This document shows positions 18,190 through 56,412 of a stretch of DNA of 64,000 nucleotides, piece by piece. The translations under genes and the position numbers were made by a program. Every line of letters starts with the position of its first letter. Position 1 is the first letter of the stretch. Origin of the DNA: Rossellomorea aquimaris (GTDB lineage: Bacteria; Bacillota; Bacilli; Bacillales; Bacillaceae_B); contig NZ_VTEX01000001.1 in the NCBI RefSeq assembly GCF_008180865.1, positions 767,261-831,260 on the forward strand, read 5' to 3'. The notes under the pieces were generated by a model that was given only the letters and a program-made list of their open reading frames with translations, was not told where the DNA came from and made no database searches.

Positions 18190-18462
18190 TTAAATATGAA
18201 ATGCGATGAGGAAGAAGAGTAGACGAACGAAACATTTCAGAGAGCTGATGGCTGGTGAGAATCAGTATGGTGAAATCGTTGAATGGGCTTTTGAGCATCC
18301 AGGCTGAAAATAAGTAGGTTATGGCGGAAGTCTCACCGATAAAAGGGACGATGTATCGAAGGCGACTTCTGTACAGATGAGTGCGTTTACTAAAGTGTAA
18401 GCGAATGAAGGTGGCACCACGGGTTTCCCGTCCTTTTTTAGAGGATGGGAAGCCCTTTTTGT
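18190..18462 (+). promoter_or_regulatory. T-box riboswitch (tRNA-Trp) upstream of trpS
   Basis: The conserved T-box sequence AAGGTGGCACCACG is at 18408-18421. The leader contains the AGTAGA-type motif near 18219 and a specifier-loop context GAATGGGCTTTTGAGC, with UGG (Trp) at 18284-18286. A terminator (GGGTTTCCCGTCCT / AGGATGGGAAGCCC plus T tract) ends at about 18460. Uncharged tRNA-Trp should stabilise the antiterminator and switch on trpS. Confidence 0.95.
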
Positions 18463-19497: not shown

Positions 19498-19621
19498 AAT
19501 AGAACAGGGTGATGAAGTGCAGGGATCATTTTGTTTTTCAGATAATTCATAATTCTCATTGACATTTCTTCTTCTTTGTTATAAGTTATGGGAAAGTTAT
19601 TTTTCACAAAATCATATAGTT

Positions 19622-19778
19622 TCTTATCAAGAGAGGTAGAGGGACTGGCCCGAAGACACCTCAGCAACCAGCCAAAGTTTTAGGTATGGTGCTAATTCCA
19701 GCAAGTTGATGTCAACTTGGACGATAAGAGGGAGAACGAACGTACAAAACCTTCTTATTTTCATTAAGAAGGTTTTTT
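19622..19778 (+). promoter_or_regulatory. SAM-I riboswitch (S-box) upstream of the met operon
   Basis: The S-box core is visible: CTTATCAAGAGAGGTAGAGG, then GACTGGCCC, CAGCAACC, and GATAAGAGGG closing the P1 helix. It ends with the terminator AAAACCTTCTTA / TAAGAAGGTTTT and T7 (19746-19779). High S-adenosylmethionine should stop transcription before metI. Confidence 0.96.
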
Positions 19779-50001: not shown

Positions 50002-50084
50002 ACACTCTTGACAGTTAGAAAATACTACCATATAATTTCAATAACAAATTTATTCTAAATTGAATATACTATACGAAAGCAAAG

Positions 50085-50318
50085 ATGAGGACATGATTCA
50101 TTCCGTTTTTCTTGATCAGAGAGCAGGGTCACCGGCTGAGAGCCCTGAAGAGAAAAGAATGATTTACCACCTCGGAGCTATTATGGTGAAATGTCAGTAT
50201 CCATAATCGGGAAAACCGTTATCTTACTTAAGCGAAGAGTAATATTTTACACTTCTGAATTAGGGTGGAACCACGACCGCACTCGTCCCTTGGTTAGGGA
50301 TGGGTGCGGTTTTTTATT
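50085..50318 (+). promoter_or_regulatory. T-box riboswitch 1 (tRNA-Thr), first of two in tandem
   Basis: The specifier context GATTTACCACCTCGGAGC carries ACC (Thr) at 50166-50168. The T-box sequence AGGGTGGAACCACG is at 50262-50275, followed by the terminator CCGCACTCGTCCCT / AGGGATGGGTGCGG and T7. Confidence 0.94.
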
Positions 50319-50334
50319 AATTGAATAATAAAGT

Positions 50335-50574
50335 GATGAAGAGGACACGAATCATTTGCTGTTTTTCTTACCAGAGAACAGGGTCACATGGCTGAGAGCC
50401 CTGAAGAAAAGGAAAGGATTTACCACCTCGGAGCTATTATGGTGAAACGTCAGTATCCATAATCGGGAAAACCGTTATCAACTTTGAGCGGAGGGCTTTT
50501 GTTTAGCACTCCGGAATTAGGGTGGTACCACGACCGCATTCGTCCCTTGACAGGGATGAATGCGGTTTTTTATA
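50335..50574 (+). promoter_or_regulatory. T-box riboswitch 2 (tRNA-Thr), second of two in tandem
   Basis: This near-copy of the first leader has ACC at 50422-50424, T-box AGGGTGGTACCACG near 50519-50532, and terminator ACCGCATTCGTCCCT / AGGGATGAATGCGGT with T5. Most of the stem I and stem III sequence is identical to leader 1, which indicates tandem duplication. Confidence 0.94.
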
Positions 50575-50601: not shown

Positions 50602-51825
50602 ATGTCAATTCAATCTGAAGTGGAAAAACGAAATCACAGGAAATTAGGTCAGGAGTTGGAGCTGTTTGTATCGATGGAGGAGGCACCCGGGATGCCCTTT
50701 TATTTACCGAAAGGGATGCTATTACGAAATGAGTTAGAAGAATTTTGGAAGAGGGAACATCGGAAAGCTGGATACCAGGAGATTAGAACTCCCATTATGA
50801 TGAAGCAGGAGCTATGGGAAAAGTCAGGTCACTGGGATCATTACCATGAGAATATGTATTTCTCAGAGGTAGATGATCAGAAATATGCGATCAAACCAAT
50901 GAGTTGTCCAGGGGCAGTATTAATCTATAAAAGCAAGAGAAAAAGTTATCGGGAGTTACCCCTTCGATACGGTGAACTGGGATTGGTTCATCGACATGAG
51001 CTATCGGGTTCATTAAGTGGATTATTGAGAGTCCGTTCCTTCACTCAGGATGATGCTCATCTATTTGTTAGGGAAGATCAAATTCGGTCGGAGCTTCATA
51101 AAGTATTGGATCTGATCGATCTTTTCTATAGTAAATTCGGATTTGACTATAAGGTTGAGCTTTCGACTCGTCCGGAAGATTTTATGGGCTCCGTTGCATT
51201 ATGGGATCAAGCTGAAGGAGATTTGGAAGATGTGCTGAAAGAGAGAGGTGTCAATTATCATGTTAATAAAGGAGACGGTGCTTTCTACGGGCCAAAAATA
51301 GATTTTCATATATTGGACGTCATTGGTCGAAGCTGGCAATGTGGAACAGTTCAACTTGATTTTCAAATGCCTGAAAAATTCGAGTGTGAATATATTGGGG
51401 AAGATAATCGAACAGTCAGACCGATTATGATTCATCGAGCGATATACGGTTCAATCGAACGCTTTATGGCAATCATCATTGAACATTTCGGAGGAGATTT
51501 TCCGCTTTGGTTAGCCCCACACCAGGTCAAAATCCTTCCGATCTCCGACGCACATTTCCAATATGCTCAAGATGTGAAGTCTCATTTAGAAAGAGAAGGG
51601 TTTAGGGTAGAAATCGATGATCGTATAGAAAAAGTCGGTATGAAAATCAGAGAAGCAGAGATGCAAAAAGTTCCTTATATGATGGTAATAGGAGATAAGG
51701 AGGTCGAGAGTGATACTATTTCGTTACGTAAGAGGAAGGAAGGAAACATAGGTATGTTGAAGATAAAAGAGGTTATGTTGAAATTACAAGAAGAGGTAAA
51801 GGGCTTGGGTGGTAAGGAGAACTAA
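50602..51825 (+). CDS. Short threonyl-tRNA synthetase without TGS and editing domains
   Basis: ThrRS charges tRNA-Thr. Normal bacterial ThrRS is about 640 residues with N-terminal TGS and second editing domains. This protein is 407 residues and starts directly at the catalytic core (GQELELFVSMEEAPGMPFYLPKG). Class II motifs and zinc ligands are present: MSCPGA, HRHELSGSLSGLLRVRSFTQ, QDDAHLF and MIHRAIYGSIERF, followed by the anticodon domain. AGGAGG precedes ATG 50602 and two T-boxes control it. It should lack hydrolysis of mischarged Ser-tRNA-Thr. Confidence 0.93.
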   Translation: MSIQSEVEKRNHRKLGQELELFVSMEEAPGMPFYLPKGMLLRNELEEFWKREHRKAGYQEIRTPIMMKQELWEKSGHWDHYHENMYFSEVDDQKYAIKPMSCPGAVLIYKSKRKSYRELPLRYGELGLVHRHELSGSLSGLLRVRSFTQDDAHLFVREDQIRSELHKVLDLIDLFYSKFGFDYKVELSTRPEDFMGSVALWDQAEGDLEDVLKERGVNYHVNKGDGAFYGPKIDFHILDVIGRSWQCGTVQLDFQMPEKFECEYIGEDNRTVRPIMIHRAIYGSIERFMAIIIEHFGGDFPLWLAPHQVKILPISDAHFQYAQDVKSHLEREGFRVEIDDRIEKVGMKIREAEMQKVPYMMVIGDKEVESDTISLRKRKEGNIGMLKIKEVMLKLQEEVKGLGGKEN

Positions 51826-52019: not shown

Positions 52020-52748
52020 ATGAGATACAAGCGTGTATTAATTAAATTAAGTGGTGGAGCGTTGGCGGATAAGGAAGGAAATAATTTTGGCACTGAAGAG
52101 CTTGATCACATTGCGGGCGAAATCATGTCGATCGTCAATATGGGGATTGAAGTTTCCATAGTTGTGGGCGGTGGCAATATATTTCGAGGAAGTCTGGCAG
52201 ATACTTGGGGAATAGAGCGGGTAGAAGCGGATAGTATCGGAACTCTCGGAACCATCATCAACAGTTTGATGCTTAGAGGTGTGTTGAAAAGTAAGACCGA
52301 CAAAGAAGTTCGGGTGATGACTTCAATCCCTGTTTCAACGGTTGCAGAACCGTATATTCGCCTTCGCGCCGTTCACCATCTTGACAAAGGATACATTGTC
52401 ATATTCGGTGGAGGAAACGGTCAACCCTTTGTGACGACGGATTACCCCAGCGTTCAGCGAGCCATCGAAACGAATAGTGAGGCTATCCTGGTAGCAAAGC
52501 AGGGAGTCGATGGTGTTTTCACAAGTGACCCTAAACAGGATAAAAAGGCGAAGATGTACCATAATTTAAATTATGATGACGTTGTAACGAATAATATTAA
52601 AGTCATGGATCAATCAGCTCTGCTTTTAGCAAGGGACTATAAACTCCCTGTACACATTTTTAATTTCGACCAGGCAGGAATCATGTTGGAAATTTGCTCC
52701 GGTCAGAAGCGGGGGACGCTAATCAACCATGAAGAGACGAGACTTTGA
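52020..52748 (+). CDS. pyrH: Uridylate (UMP) kinase paralogue
   Basis: PyrH phosphorylates UMP to UDP. The 242-residue protein has the amino acid kinase fold motifs: LIKLSGGALAD (canonical LKLSGEAL), VVGGGNIFRG, the DSIGTLGTIINS block, and DGVFTSDP. The housekeeping pyrH normally lies in the rpsB-tsf-pyrH-frr cluster, so this stand-alone gene is probably a second copy. The LSGG variation and its position behind a T-box-regulated ThrRS are unusual. GGGGAGG precedes ATG 52020. Confidence 0.88.
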   Translation: MRYKRVLIKLSGGALADKEGNNFGTEELDHIAGEIMSIVNMGIEVSIVVGGGNIFRGSLADTWGIERVEADSIGTLGTIINSLMLRGVLKSKTDKEVRVMTSIPVSTVAEPYIRLRAVHHLDKGYIVIFGGGNGQPFVTTDYPSVQRAIETNSEAILVAKQGVDGVFTSDPKQDKKAKMYHNLNYDDVVTNNIKVMDQSALLLARDYKLPVHIFNFDQAGIMLEICSGQKRGTLINHEETRL

Positions 52749-53430: not shown

Positions 53431-53724
53431 TTACACCATTTCCTTATAGAGCTTTTCATACTGATTGGCCATTTCAAAGTCCAAATCTGTCAGACCATTT
53501 TCACTCCAGGAAGTCAACTCTACAATAACCAATTTGTATTGAATCGTTAGAAAAGGATGGTGATTCCTTTCCTCGGCTGCCTCTGCGAGTTTGTTGACGA
53601 ACCGTATTCCTTCAAGGTAATCTCTGAACCGGTAGCGCCGTTCAATCCATTTCTCTTCTTTAATGCGCCATTTCTCAAGAGTTTCAAGTTTATGAGAAAT
53701 GGCAGCTTCACTTAACTTCTTCAT
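53431..53724 (-). CDS. phhB: Pterin-4-alpha-carbinolamine dehydratase
   Basis: PhhB regenerates the pterin cofactor used by phenylalanine hydroxylase. The 97-residue protein has the family block AEERNHHPFLTIQYKLVIVE, in which the conserved His pair (HH) and the following aromatic strand give the DCoH/PCD active site. Size is right. It overlaps the phhA stop by four bases (ATGA), which fits coupled production of hydroxylase and dehydratase. Confidence 0.93.
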   Translation of the reverse strand: MKKLSEAAISHKLETLEKWRIKEEKWIERRYRFRDYLEGIRFVNKLAEAAEERNHHPFLTIQYKLVIVELTSWSENGLTDLDFEMANQYEKLYKEMV

Positions 53725-55448
53725 ACCATTACTCCTTTCCTTCCATAAATGACATCAAGGCCATTTTGAATGAGACGTGCAAACCGATCCTGCTTACTTA
53801 AAGCATATAAGTCTTTCAGAATCTCTTCCTTTAACTGAGATCCTGGCTCGTGAATCTGCAGTAATTCAATAATTTCAAGTCTAAGCAGCCACTCTTCAGG
53901 GAAATCATCTTTCAGCCTGCCTACTATACTATGAATAAGATCTCTAGAAAAGGCTACTTCTCTCAGTTCTCTTACCTCTCTGAAGAGACTGTCCAATGGC
54001 GTAAAATCATGAGATCCGCCATCCTTTTCTTCGATAAGAGGTGTGTCCCCGAAGAAAGCATCATAATCTGCCGCATGTGGCCGTGCTGAAACGATTTCAC
54101 TGCCTACTGCCAAATCGTAAGTTCCCCATGAAGGGTGGAATAAAACGTGTTCACCCAAAGTCACCATACATTCATCAATTGATATGAGAACAAGATGATG
54201 ATGGTGAAAGACGATATTCGTCACATGTCCAGAAACTTCAATCTCACCATCAAATGTGATTTGCACCATTTTATTCATCTCAATGCCAAGCTTCCTTAAA
54301 TCCGCTTCGGTCTGGTTCTCAAGAATGGTACCATCCTGAAGGATACCAATTGGTGCACCGAAGCCATCAGCATGATGATCTGTCCCGTGATGATCCAGTT
54401 GCTCGTTTTGGATGGAAAGTGAAGTAGGTCCTACGGTTTTGACGTAGATAGCTTCACCATGCTCATTTTTTATGACTTCTTTGAAGATGCCGGTGACTTG
54501 TAATCCTGAATTGTATTCGATATGAGCAAGTTGATTAGAATGAATCGCTTTATCTATAGCTTCTGTTCCACCTTTACGGAAAGCCATGGTCTCTCCGAAT
54601 TTCTCGACTTCTTCAATGAGTTGTTCGAAACTTTCACAAACAAATAATTGAGTTTGCATGGAGGTAACATCATAGCTGGTATGGATGGCGTCTTCGATGG
54701 AGAACGGCCTTTTGATCACTTCACTTGATAAACAGTGCTTGCTTTCTCCAACCGATGAAAGCAGTCCTGCACCGAAGATCTTCGGTTGATGAAAATCACC
54801 AATTAATCCGAATTCGACAGTCCACCAAAAGATTCGTGAAATTTGTTCTGCTTCAGAAAGACCGGAAACGGCCTCTTGCTTTTCAATTAACACCTGCTTT
54901 GCTTCTTCAATTTCTTTCTCAGTGGAGCATGGATCCTCCATCACAATGGATAAATGCCTGGTTGCTTCAAATGCTTCGTGTTCTTCTTCAGTGGCAAAAG
55001 CGTTCGCTCCGATATTGCCGATTATCTTTACAAATCGGGAATAGGTTTCATCAAACAGAATGGGGGCGTGTCCGGCTGCTTCATGCAATATATCAGGAGC
55101 AGGGGTGTATTCGATATTCGATTTTTGACGAATATCTGTTGCTATTGGGAGAATACCGTGAGCTTGGAAATCAAAGAACGCTGTACCAGGGATCAAACCG
55201 TCTACAATTGCAGCGCCCCAGCCAATTTTCGCTAAGTGCCGGTTCATATCACTTACCTTAGGAATTTCGTGTATGTTAATACCGGAGGCTTTTAATCCTT
55301 CAGTGAAAGCTTCATGTGCGGTATCTTCAAGAAAGTGATGATTCTGTCTCATCACATAACGCCACACGGCATGATCGATAGGGGTATATGAATGATAATG
55401 TTGTTCAGCTACAAATTGGCGTAAATGACTTGGAATGGTTTGGTTCAT
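53721..55448 (-). CDS. phhA: Phenylalanine 4-monooxygenase (aromatic amino acid hydroxylase), long form
   Basis: The enzyme hydroxylates phenylalanine to tyrosine with O2 and tetrahydropterin. The 575-residue protein carries the iron-binding facial triad HEAAGH (His122 and His127) and Glu212 in WWTVEFGLIG, within an otherwise recognisable catalytic domain (about 1-300). The second half (about 310-575) is an extra region of unknown function; proteobacterial PhhA is only about 260-300 residues, and B. cereus-type enzymes are long. AAGGAG precedes ATG 55448. It is controlled by a T-box. Confidence 0.93.
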   Translation of the reverse strand: MNQTIPSHLRQFVAEQHYHSYTPIDHAVWRYVMRQNHHFLEDTAHEAFTEGLKASGINIHEIPKVSDMNRHLAKIGWGAAIVDGLIPGTAFFDFQAHGILPIATDIRQKSNIEYTPAPDILHEAAGHAPILFDETYSRFVKIIGNIGANAFATEEEHEAFEATRHLSIVMEDPCSTEKEIEEAKQVLIEKQEAVSGLSEAEQISRIFWWTVEFGLIGDFHQPKIFGAGLLSSVGESKHCLSSEVIKRPFSIEDAIHTSYDVTSMQTQLFVCESFEQLIEEVEKFGETMAFRKGGTEAIDKAIHSNQLAHIEYNSGLQVTGIFKEVIKNEHGEAIYVKTVGPTSLSIQNEQLDHHGTDHHADGFGAPIGILQDGTILENQTEADLRKLGIEMNKMVQITFDGEIEVSGHVTNIVFHHHHLVLISIDECMVTLGEHVLFHPSWGTYDLAVGSEIVSARPHAADYDAFFGDTPLIEEKDGGSHDFTPLDSLFREVRELREVAFSRDLIHSIVGRLKDDFPEEWLLRLEIIELLQIHEPGSQLKEEILKDLYALSKQDRFARLIQNGLDVIYGRKGVMV

Positions 55449-55483
55449 ATTAAATTCTCCTTATTTCAAGATATTGTTTAGTG

Positions 55484-55501
55484 CTTAAACGCTTTTATGC
55501 G
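55484..55501 (-). repeat. 18-base direct repeat, downstream copy (operator candidate)
   Basis: CTTAAACGCTTTTATGCG on the + strand is identical to 55781-55798. It lies between the T-box terminator and the phhA start. Confidence 0.7.
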
Positions 55502-55518
55502 CGAAAGTAGATACATAC

Positions 55519-55765
55519 AAAAAATCCCTGCTGAATAAATCAGCAGGGACGAAAAAGATCGCGGTACCACCCTTGTTGTAAGCAAATTGCCTACCACTCG
55601 AATTGATAACGGACAATAACCGTCTTGTTCCACTACAGAACAAGAAGCTCAAGAAACGTAATTCATGATTTTCCTATGTACTAGTTCCCAGCACCACTAG
55701 CTCTCTATAACAGGGAGGAGATCACTACTTCAAATCCATCACAGCTCTTCACAAATATGTATGAT
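55519..55765 (-). promoter_or_regulatory. T-box riboswitch, probable tRNA-Tyr, upstream of phhA
   Basis: On the minus strand the T-box sequence AGGGTGGTACCGCG is at 55573-55560 and the terminator TCCCTGCTGA / TCAGCAGGGA (loop TTTAT) with six T is at 55549-55519. The specifier region reads GAATTACGTTTCTTGAGC; by alignment with the trpS leader (GAATGGGCTTTTGAGC), UAC (Tyr, 55660-55658) is the specifier. This makes tyrosine shortage the signal. Confidence 0.9.
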
Positions 55766-55778
55766 CAAGATGCTTTAT

Positions 55779-55808
55779 ATCTTAAACGCTTTTATGCGTT
55801 AAAGTCAA
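55779..55808 (-). promoter_or_regulatory. Promoter of the phhA leader with embedded repeat
   Basis: On the minus strand TTGACT (55808-55803) and TAAGAT (55784-55779) are separated by 18 bases. The upstream copy of the 18-base repeat (55781-55798), containing the inverted AACGC / GCGTT, fills the spacer and the -10. Confidence 0.65.
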
Positions 55809-56186: not shown

Positions 56187-56412
56187 GACAATCCTCCTTT
56201 TTCTCCTAATCGTATTCGTTACTTAATAGTTAAATTATAACAAAACACGAGGTGGATTAGTATATAGTGTGGTAATGTTAAGATAGAATCTTCTTAGAAG
56301 AATATACGAATAAAAACATAAAAGAGTTTCATGTTTTCTAAATAAAGAGGAGAGTTTCAGTAACAATTATTTTTTCGCAGAGAATATCTGGACAAAGACA
56401 AAGTGGAATAAA

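Follow-up and report, generated by a model that had tools for sequence, protein, structure and literature searches.

In Escherichia coli, TrpR binds DNA in tandem at adjoining sites 8 bp apart, the inner half-sites being common to adjacent dimers, and controls the DAHP synthase gene aroH. The met boxes of MetJ, found at methionine genes, are tandem palindromic 8-bp boxes (AGACGTCT) in variable number. An ARO box was reportedly described in Streptococcus and Lactococcus in a study of 2003. In the portions of PMC9413887 consulted, the half-site of E. coli TrpR is given as GNACT with an 8-bp spacer, and the sites of the TrpR-family protein HisR (YerC) are represented by the consensus cacTTTAnnnnnnTAAAgtg. 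The same portions name histidine as the effector of YerC/HisR in Ruminococcus gnavus, predict a regulon of his genes and yuiF, and link hisR2 paralogs to tyrosine genes, with tdcP-tdcA-tyrT; a search of the paper counted no mention of aroA (PMC9413887). At the RNA level, the parts of PMC2494555 consulted report Tyr T-boxes at NhaC-type genes and, for the Bacillus cereus group, a phhA T-box. According to a reconstruction of regulation in Bacillus subtilis from 2008, information on how aroA is transcribed is lacking (PMC2311275); neither yerC nor aroA occurs in PMC13170310. The titles and abstract beginnings searched, which lie mostly outside the subscription literature, describe no DNA operator for aroA, phhA, or NhaC-type genes of Bacilli; the shared control switch in front of aromatic genes presented here is apparently undescribed so far.

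The phhA locus examined here resides in a window, i.e., the whole stretch of DNA analyzed, of 64,000 nucleotides, and comprises the features below.

53431-53724, minus strand: 4a-hydroxytetrahydrobiopterin dehydratase gene, overlapping the phhA stop and presumably in the same operon (NCBIfam NF002017, 94 bits, cut-off 80)
53721-55448, minus strand: phhA, aromatic amino acid hydroxylase, 575 aa (NCBIfam NF010657, 761 bits, cut-off 346)
55457-55462, minus strand: phhA ribosome binding site AAGGAG (from the sequence)
55476-55507, minus strand: downstream array, CTTTCGCG CATAAAAG CGTTTAAG CACTAAAC on the gene strand, containing the 55484-55501 copy of the repeat and ending in a degenerate unit (array score 23/28)
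55524-55550, minus strand: leader terminator hairpin, then a U-run (terminator scan)
55542-55751, minus strand: T-box leader RF00230 with the specifier loop GAAUUACG (cmscan 129.9 bits, gathering score 93)
55773-55804, minus strand: promoter array of four 8-bp units, CTTTAACG CATAAAAG CGTTTAAG ATATAAAG on the gene strand, containing the repeat copy 55781-55798 (array score 25/28)
55779-55784, minus strand: -10 hexamer TAAGAT within the promoter array, spacer 18 (consensus scan)
55803-55808, minus strand: -35 hexamer TTGACT of the leader promoter, retained in the two-copy relatives among those listed (consensus scan)

The T-box specifier is UAC (Tyr) if the codon register, set by eye, starts one base past GAA. 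The promoter-like element TTGACT-18-TAAGAT spans 55808-55779, and both of its hexamers call for caution, as the 2 promoter-like sites of the consensus scan are no excess over the shuffles, which averaged 1.7. T-box leaders occur elsewhere in the window as well. At 50073-50550 and 50602-51825, two in tandem precede a 407-aa ORF that by eye resembles threonyl-tRNA synthetase with an apparently short N-terminus and is followed by a 242-aa UMP-kinase-like ORF (52020-52748). Another T-box precedes an ORF that by eye is tryptophanyl-tRNA-synthetase-like, with a SAM riboswitch soon after that ORF (18197-18438 and 19621-19730).

A sequence-only reading of this region had reported an 18-base direct repeat, CTTAAACGCTTTTATGCG, at 55484-55501 and 55781-55798, and both copies are indeed exact and on the same strand. 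With up to 3 mismatches allowed, the two copies were the only matches in the window, far beyond the expectation from 100 dinucleotide shuffles (mean 0.07, never 2). As phhA is encoded on the minus strand, the copy upstream with respect to the gene is 55781-55798. That reading had this copy fill both the spacer and the -10 of the leader promoter; the spacer is filled, but the -10 only in part. The other copy was correctly placed before the phhA ribosome binding site: it lies between the leader terminator and AAGGAG, and the array containing it ends 13 bp from the ribosome binding site. The same reading had taken the dyad AACGC-N6-GCGTT as part of the 18-mer, but the dyad (55785-55800) extends two bases past it and exists in the upstream copy only. 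Nor does the dyad hold as a recognition element, since the downstream copy reads CGCGC-N6-GCGTT and AACGCATAAAAGCGTT is matched exactly at a single place in the genome of 4.74 Mb. The dyad is not conserved; most loci of the second group of relatives (see below for the two groups) carry AACAC or AATAC in place of AACGC in their promoter copy. The dyad operator was dropped.

The predicted operator is instead an array spanning 32 bp and built of four 8-bp units, CTTTAnnn, CWTAAAAG, CGTTTAAK, and nnnTAAAG in consensus, each repeat copy being the core of an array rather than a dyad. The number of units differs between sites in 8-bp steps; related sites have one or two additional 8-mers behind the CTTT unit, and arrays of five to seven units are present at other phhA loci. 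The unit counts per site step by 8 by construction, but a register-free check of 106 distinct anchors is independent of that: CTTT lies 16, 24, or 32 bases ahead of the CGTTTAA unit in 104 of them and exclusively off register in 0. The CTTT offset is -16 in 91/106 anchors, a count partly circular because some loci were found via that spacing, and -24 in 14/106. AAAG occurs at +12 in 62/106 anchors, with at most 3 for any other single offset; neither this count nor that at -24 is circular. The inner units deviate from the CTTTA/TAAAG half-site by at least one base and read as half-sites in both directions, and the array as a whole consists of tandem palindromic 8-bp boxes of the MetJ kind. At first we took the core for a palindrome of 16 bp, CTTAAAAGCGTTTAAG, and gave this up for the 8-bp array because insertions of both 8 and 16 bp were seen. 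The cre site of CcpA, WTGNNARCGNWWWCAWW in consensus, was also considered and rejected, as it needs TG/CA at the outer positions, where the conserved core has TA/AG by eye. Scoring the window for the array recovered both arrays and one more place, 56293-56324 on the plus strand (23/28). The units there, CTTAGAAG AATATACG AATAAAAA CATAAAAG, are unlike those of the true arrays, and the site is probably a chance match.

The same element stands before a coherent set of genes, namely aroA (DAHP synthase), phhA, and NhaC-type and TrpX-like transporter genes. When a 24-bp pattern was searched allowing a single mismatch, it was found in 240 of the 397 genomes of the order, against 0 for the reversed control among the matches listed. 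Thirty loci among the matches listed were assigned by eye to aroA (20), phhA (5), NhaC-type genes (2), and TrpX-type genes (2), with 1 unassigned. Four of them were profile-checked: L148, L139, and L142 scored above the family cut-offs, and L145 matched TrpX below the cut-off. A second set of 30 loci, 29 of which were listed (L297 is absent; L292 and L308 denote a single site), gave by eye 16 aroA (two being that one site), 7 NhaC-type genes, and 2 phhA from one genome, besides an amino acid permease, a hisC, one match apparently inside a coding region, and one unassigned; L299 exceeded the hisC cut-off, and L300 and L288 matched below theirs. In the genome under study, an array matching 26/27 positions precedes aroA, which encodes a bifunctional DAHP synthase and chorismate mutase. 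Beyond the window, this genome matches best at C1:338384, where a perfect CTTAAAAGCGTTTAAG directly follows the promoter belonging to a T-box leader (81.8 bits, under the gathering score of 93); behind that leader comes an NhaC-type transporter gene (fragment, 310 bits, cut-off 370). The exact core is located 211-299 bp ahead of a T-box signature outside phhA in 17 more genomes of this genus, 14 of which gave no phhA match. We are highly confident that the arrays serve as DNA operators in one common aromatic regulon. That the repeat arose as a duplicated promoter or by chance, with no regulatory protein, is barely credible: the upstream copy does overlap the -35 and -10, but no promoter was scored at the downstream copy, the place of the array relative to the promoter differs between genes, and a chance repeat is at odds with the pattern counts above.

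The array is by no means universal at aroA. Among 30 aroA upstream regions, drawn mostly from genomes chosen for the absence of the strict pattern, 12 matched at 23/27 or better, 4 in part (19-22, including the diverged array of L204 with 22/27), and 13 not at all, while 1 had no match in the ~230 nt readable. At L224, the ~230 nt ahead of aroA that were searched held neither an array nor a T-box. Shorter or looser patterns were not clearly enriched over controls (a 14-mer with 1 mismatch; a 16-mer with 3 mismatches, 44 and 35 matches against 32 and 31), and single weak matches therefore mean little. Separately, array-less aroA genes lie behind one or two T-box signatures (L277, L280, L282, and L283) in 2 of 4 genomes of family f23 (G057 and G415, the latter with YerC) and 2 of 5 of family f44 (G289 and G404); no T-box signature was detected at array-less aroA in G397, G100 (~230 nt only), G116, G078, and G196. 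Judging from these upstream regions, it is possible that the DNA operator was exchanged for an RNA switch at aroA of G289, G404, G415, and G057.

The array takes up different positions relative to promoters, as judged by eye. It covers the spacer and -10 at the phhA promoters of two-copy loci, lies directly past the -10 at NhaC-type genes and other phhA genes, and ends 2-10 bp ahead of a GTGACA-like -35 at aroA. Such a change of position between genes points to a DNA-bound protein. In two of the three settings (the two-copy phhA promoter and aroA), the array is outside the transcript of its own promoter, which suggests that it is read as DNA and argues against an RNA element shared by all settings. 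From the arrays over a promoter or directly past the -10, we infer that the sign of regulation is repression. Taken alone, aroA would equally allow activation, because the array lies ahead of the -35.

As for the protein, the earlier reading had proposed an unknown repressor, which can tentatively be narrowed to a TrpR-family protein. CTTTA and TAAAG, with CTTT-N8-AAAG, are present in the first and last units of the array, and the HisR consensus, as given in the portions consulted, equals these two units with nothing between (PMC9413887). The genome under study has a single PF01371 match, yerC (122.8 bits; 166.6 bits for TIGR02531), and the solved chain nearest to its product is 3kor. The PF01371 cut-off was passed by 381 of the 397 genomes of the order, and 14 of the remaining 16 belong to family f23. 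Arrays were found in 1 of the 16 genomes without YerC against 239 of the 381 with it (Fisher 6e-6, naive), and phhA arrays in 0 of 11 phhA genomes without YerC against 16 of 37 with it (Fisher 0.006, naive); both values are inflated because the genomes are related. The latter comparison covers 48 of 68 loci, and 15 of the 20 omitted, many of them near-duplicates, carry arrays. The sole genome with an array and without YerC, G091, is a draft that is 94% complete. Conversely, 142 of the 381 YerC-bearing genomes had no strict-pattern match, and YerC is present in the sampled genomes of families f7, f14, and f44 whose aroA is without an array. The co-occurrence is thus one-sided, with YerC persisting where aroA has no array, and rests on few losses. 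The histidine effector of YerC/HisR named above also counts against YerC as the protein at these arrays.

We also looked for HisR-like sites proper. Three, each with 2 mismatches, occur within 94 bp before the yuiF-like gene of the genome under study (L238, ~1500; gene assigned by eye) and are not in 8-bp register. The HisR pattern, with a half-site that is short and A+T-rich, showed no enrichment genome-wide (25 and 25 matches against 36 and 36 for the reversed control). One histidine gene, the hisC of L299, is among the array targets. YerC-family paralogs were observed directly downstream of an NhaC-type gene, beside an hmgA-like ORF, in three genomes of family f39 and near an NhaC-type gene in G382 (L262-L265 in all); L262 and L264 are 41-42% identical to the YerC of the genome under study. 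This linkage resembles that of hisR2 in the portions of PMC9413887 consulted. No array was found upstream of the paralog operons (L266-L269), and the genomes of family f39 have the usual aroA array (L311-L313), so these paralogs, considered as a specific aromatic regulator, are unlikely to be the general regulator of aroA. By eye, two adjacent YerC-family genes in G345 (L270) are flanked by an MFS-type ORF on one side and, on the other side and the opposite strand, by an ORF resembling amino acid dehydrogenases.

On balance, we consider it fairly probable that the protein binding the arrays belongs to the TrpR family, and our confidence is evenly split as to whether it is YerC itself. In the mechanism that we propose, the operator is the array of 8-bp units, with CTTT opening the first and AAAG closing the last. 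Dimers of a TrpR-family protein, most likely YerC (HisR), would sit side by side with a step of 8 bp, each inner unit serving two neighboring dimers. When an aromatic amino acid is plentiful, a filled promoter array would stop RNA polymerase at phhA. This co-repressor is probably tyrosine, because phhA makes tyrosine and NhaC-type genes can carry Tyr T-boxes. The downstream array would act as a roadblock for polymerases past the T-box terminator, charged tRNA would work separately via the T-box, and the same switch would turn down aroA, the entry to aromatic synthesis, and the NhaC-type transporters. Taken as a whole, the explanation that we favor by a little is that TrpR-family dimers, probably of YerC, repress cooperatively from tandem units together with an aromatic co-repressor, in addition to the T-box.

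The strongest competitor keeps the aromatic regulon and replaces the protein by one outside the TrpR family, such as a MetJ-like ribbon-helix-helix repressor with one dimer per palindromic 8-bp unit. Tandem palindromic 8-mers in variable number also build the met boxes, and YerC occurs in genomes without aroA arrays, as this alternative would have it. On the other hand, the half-site is the same as that of HisR and arrays are rare in genomes without YerC, and we regard such a protein as somewhat unlikely, though a serious contender.

The remaining two alternatives concern the pair of copies and are best weighed against the conservation at phhA loci, the check on T-box-keeping relatives that the earlier reading had called for. 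phhA was found in seven more genomes of the same genus with protein identities of 77-95%, and the closest among the 70 loci from named records include Rossellomorea aquimaris at 95%. We retained 78 phhA loci after removing L023-L027 (the same genomes as L011, L012, L014, L015, and L016) and L022 (a fragment). The four-unit score reached at least 22 in 41 of the 78 upstream regions against 1 of 468 shuffles; since many loci are near kin, these counts do not represent independent events. Of the 51 loci with a T-box signature, 37 are among these 41, and 13 of the 37 come from Exiguobacterium and are near relatives of one another; the 27 loci lacking the signature contribute the other 4. The pair of copies is complete in 18 of the 51, 8 from the same genus and 10 others, most labelled Cytobacillus. 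With the same element present at other genes, the proposal of an operator pair on top of T-box control has fared well. At L164, in addition, an array just past a T-box-like terminator has no recognized gene behind it and is perhaps a remnant of a phhA leader.

In the alignment of 17 leaders, cross-group identity is 0.944 in the promoter array against 0.219 in the 60 nt before it. The downstream array shows 0.776 (0.859 in its first three units, 24 bases), with 0.487 and 0.262 in the flanks. These figures exclude L028, the leader of which contains an insertion. The array head is CTTTA in 18/18 promoter copies and CTTTC in 15/18 downstream copies. Because the heads are copy-specific, the two copies appear to have been kept distinct for long rather than to stem from a fresh duplication. 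These data bear on whether the downstream copy is a leftover ancestral operator under little selection, with the promoter copy alone at work. The last downstream unit is degenerate, and phhA loci without a T-box signature carry an array near the start codon, so the leader may have inserted between the two. Nevertheless, both the identity of the first three units relative to the flanks (0.26-0.49) and the copy-specific heads stand against a leftover, which we judge improbable.

Looping of the leader DNA, by which the earlier reading had the two copies possibly cooperate, fares worse. That 18 loci have two copies accords with it, but the spacing of their centers wanders (287, 288, 289, 292, 293, 296, 297, 298, and 301 bp over 17 loci, and 537 bp in the 18th) without helical phasing, and a single array is found at other phhA loci and at the aroA and NhaC-type sites read. 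Looping is therefore very improbable. The 18th locus, L028, has an insertion of ~250 bp in the T-box leader with both arrays retained; its record is labelled Pseudomonas, and its leader is like those of Cytobacillus.

The arrays thus provide a concrete and widely conserved predicted operator for aroA, phhA, and NhaC-type transporters, along with a named candidate protein. We tentatively suggest that YerC (HisR) may also be the long-missing repressor of DAHP synthase and tyrosine supply in much of Bacilli, the regulons being separated by a single palindrome for histidine and tandem 8-bp arrays for aromatic amino acids. If YerC binds the arrays, one small repressor would connect histidine and aromatic supply and would tell its targets apart by how many 8-bp units they carry. 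If the proposed mechanism is true, a DNA repressor and a tRNA-sensing riboswitch would be stacked on one tyrosine-making gene.

Compared with the known systems, the arrays share with the met boxes of MetJ the tandem palindromic 8-bp boxes in variable number, a likeness in the DNA boxes alone, and differ from them in the box itself and in the methionine genes that MetJ serves. They resemble the sites of E. coli TrpR in the 8-bp step, the shared inner half-sites, and a DAHP synthase gene as a target, although the half-site is GNACT there and CTTTA here, and the units are fewer there. The sites of HisR (YerC) at his and yuiF genes in Firmicutes, as given in the portions consulted, have in common with the arrays the CTTTA/TAAAG half-sites, CTTT and AAAG eight bases apart, and the presence of a TrpR-family gene (PMC9413887). 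In contrast to the arrays of four to seven tandem units at aroA, phhA, and NhaC-type genes, the HisR site in those portions is one 20-bp palindrome at histidine genes (PMC9413887). Finally, the T-box control of phhA and NhaC-type genes, in the parts of PMC2494555 consulted, is exerted by an RNA switch, while the arrays would constitute a second, DNA-level layer.
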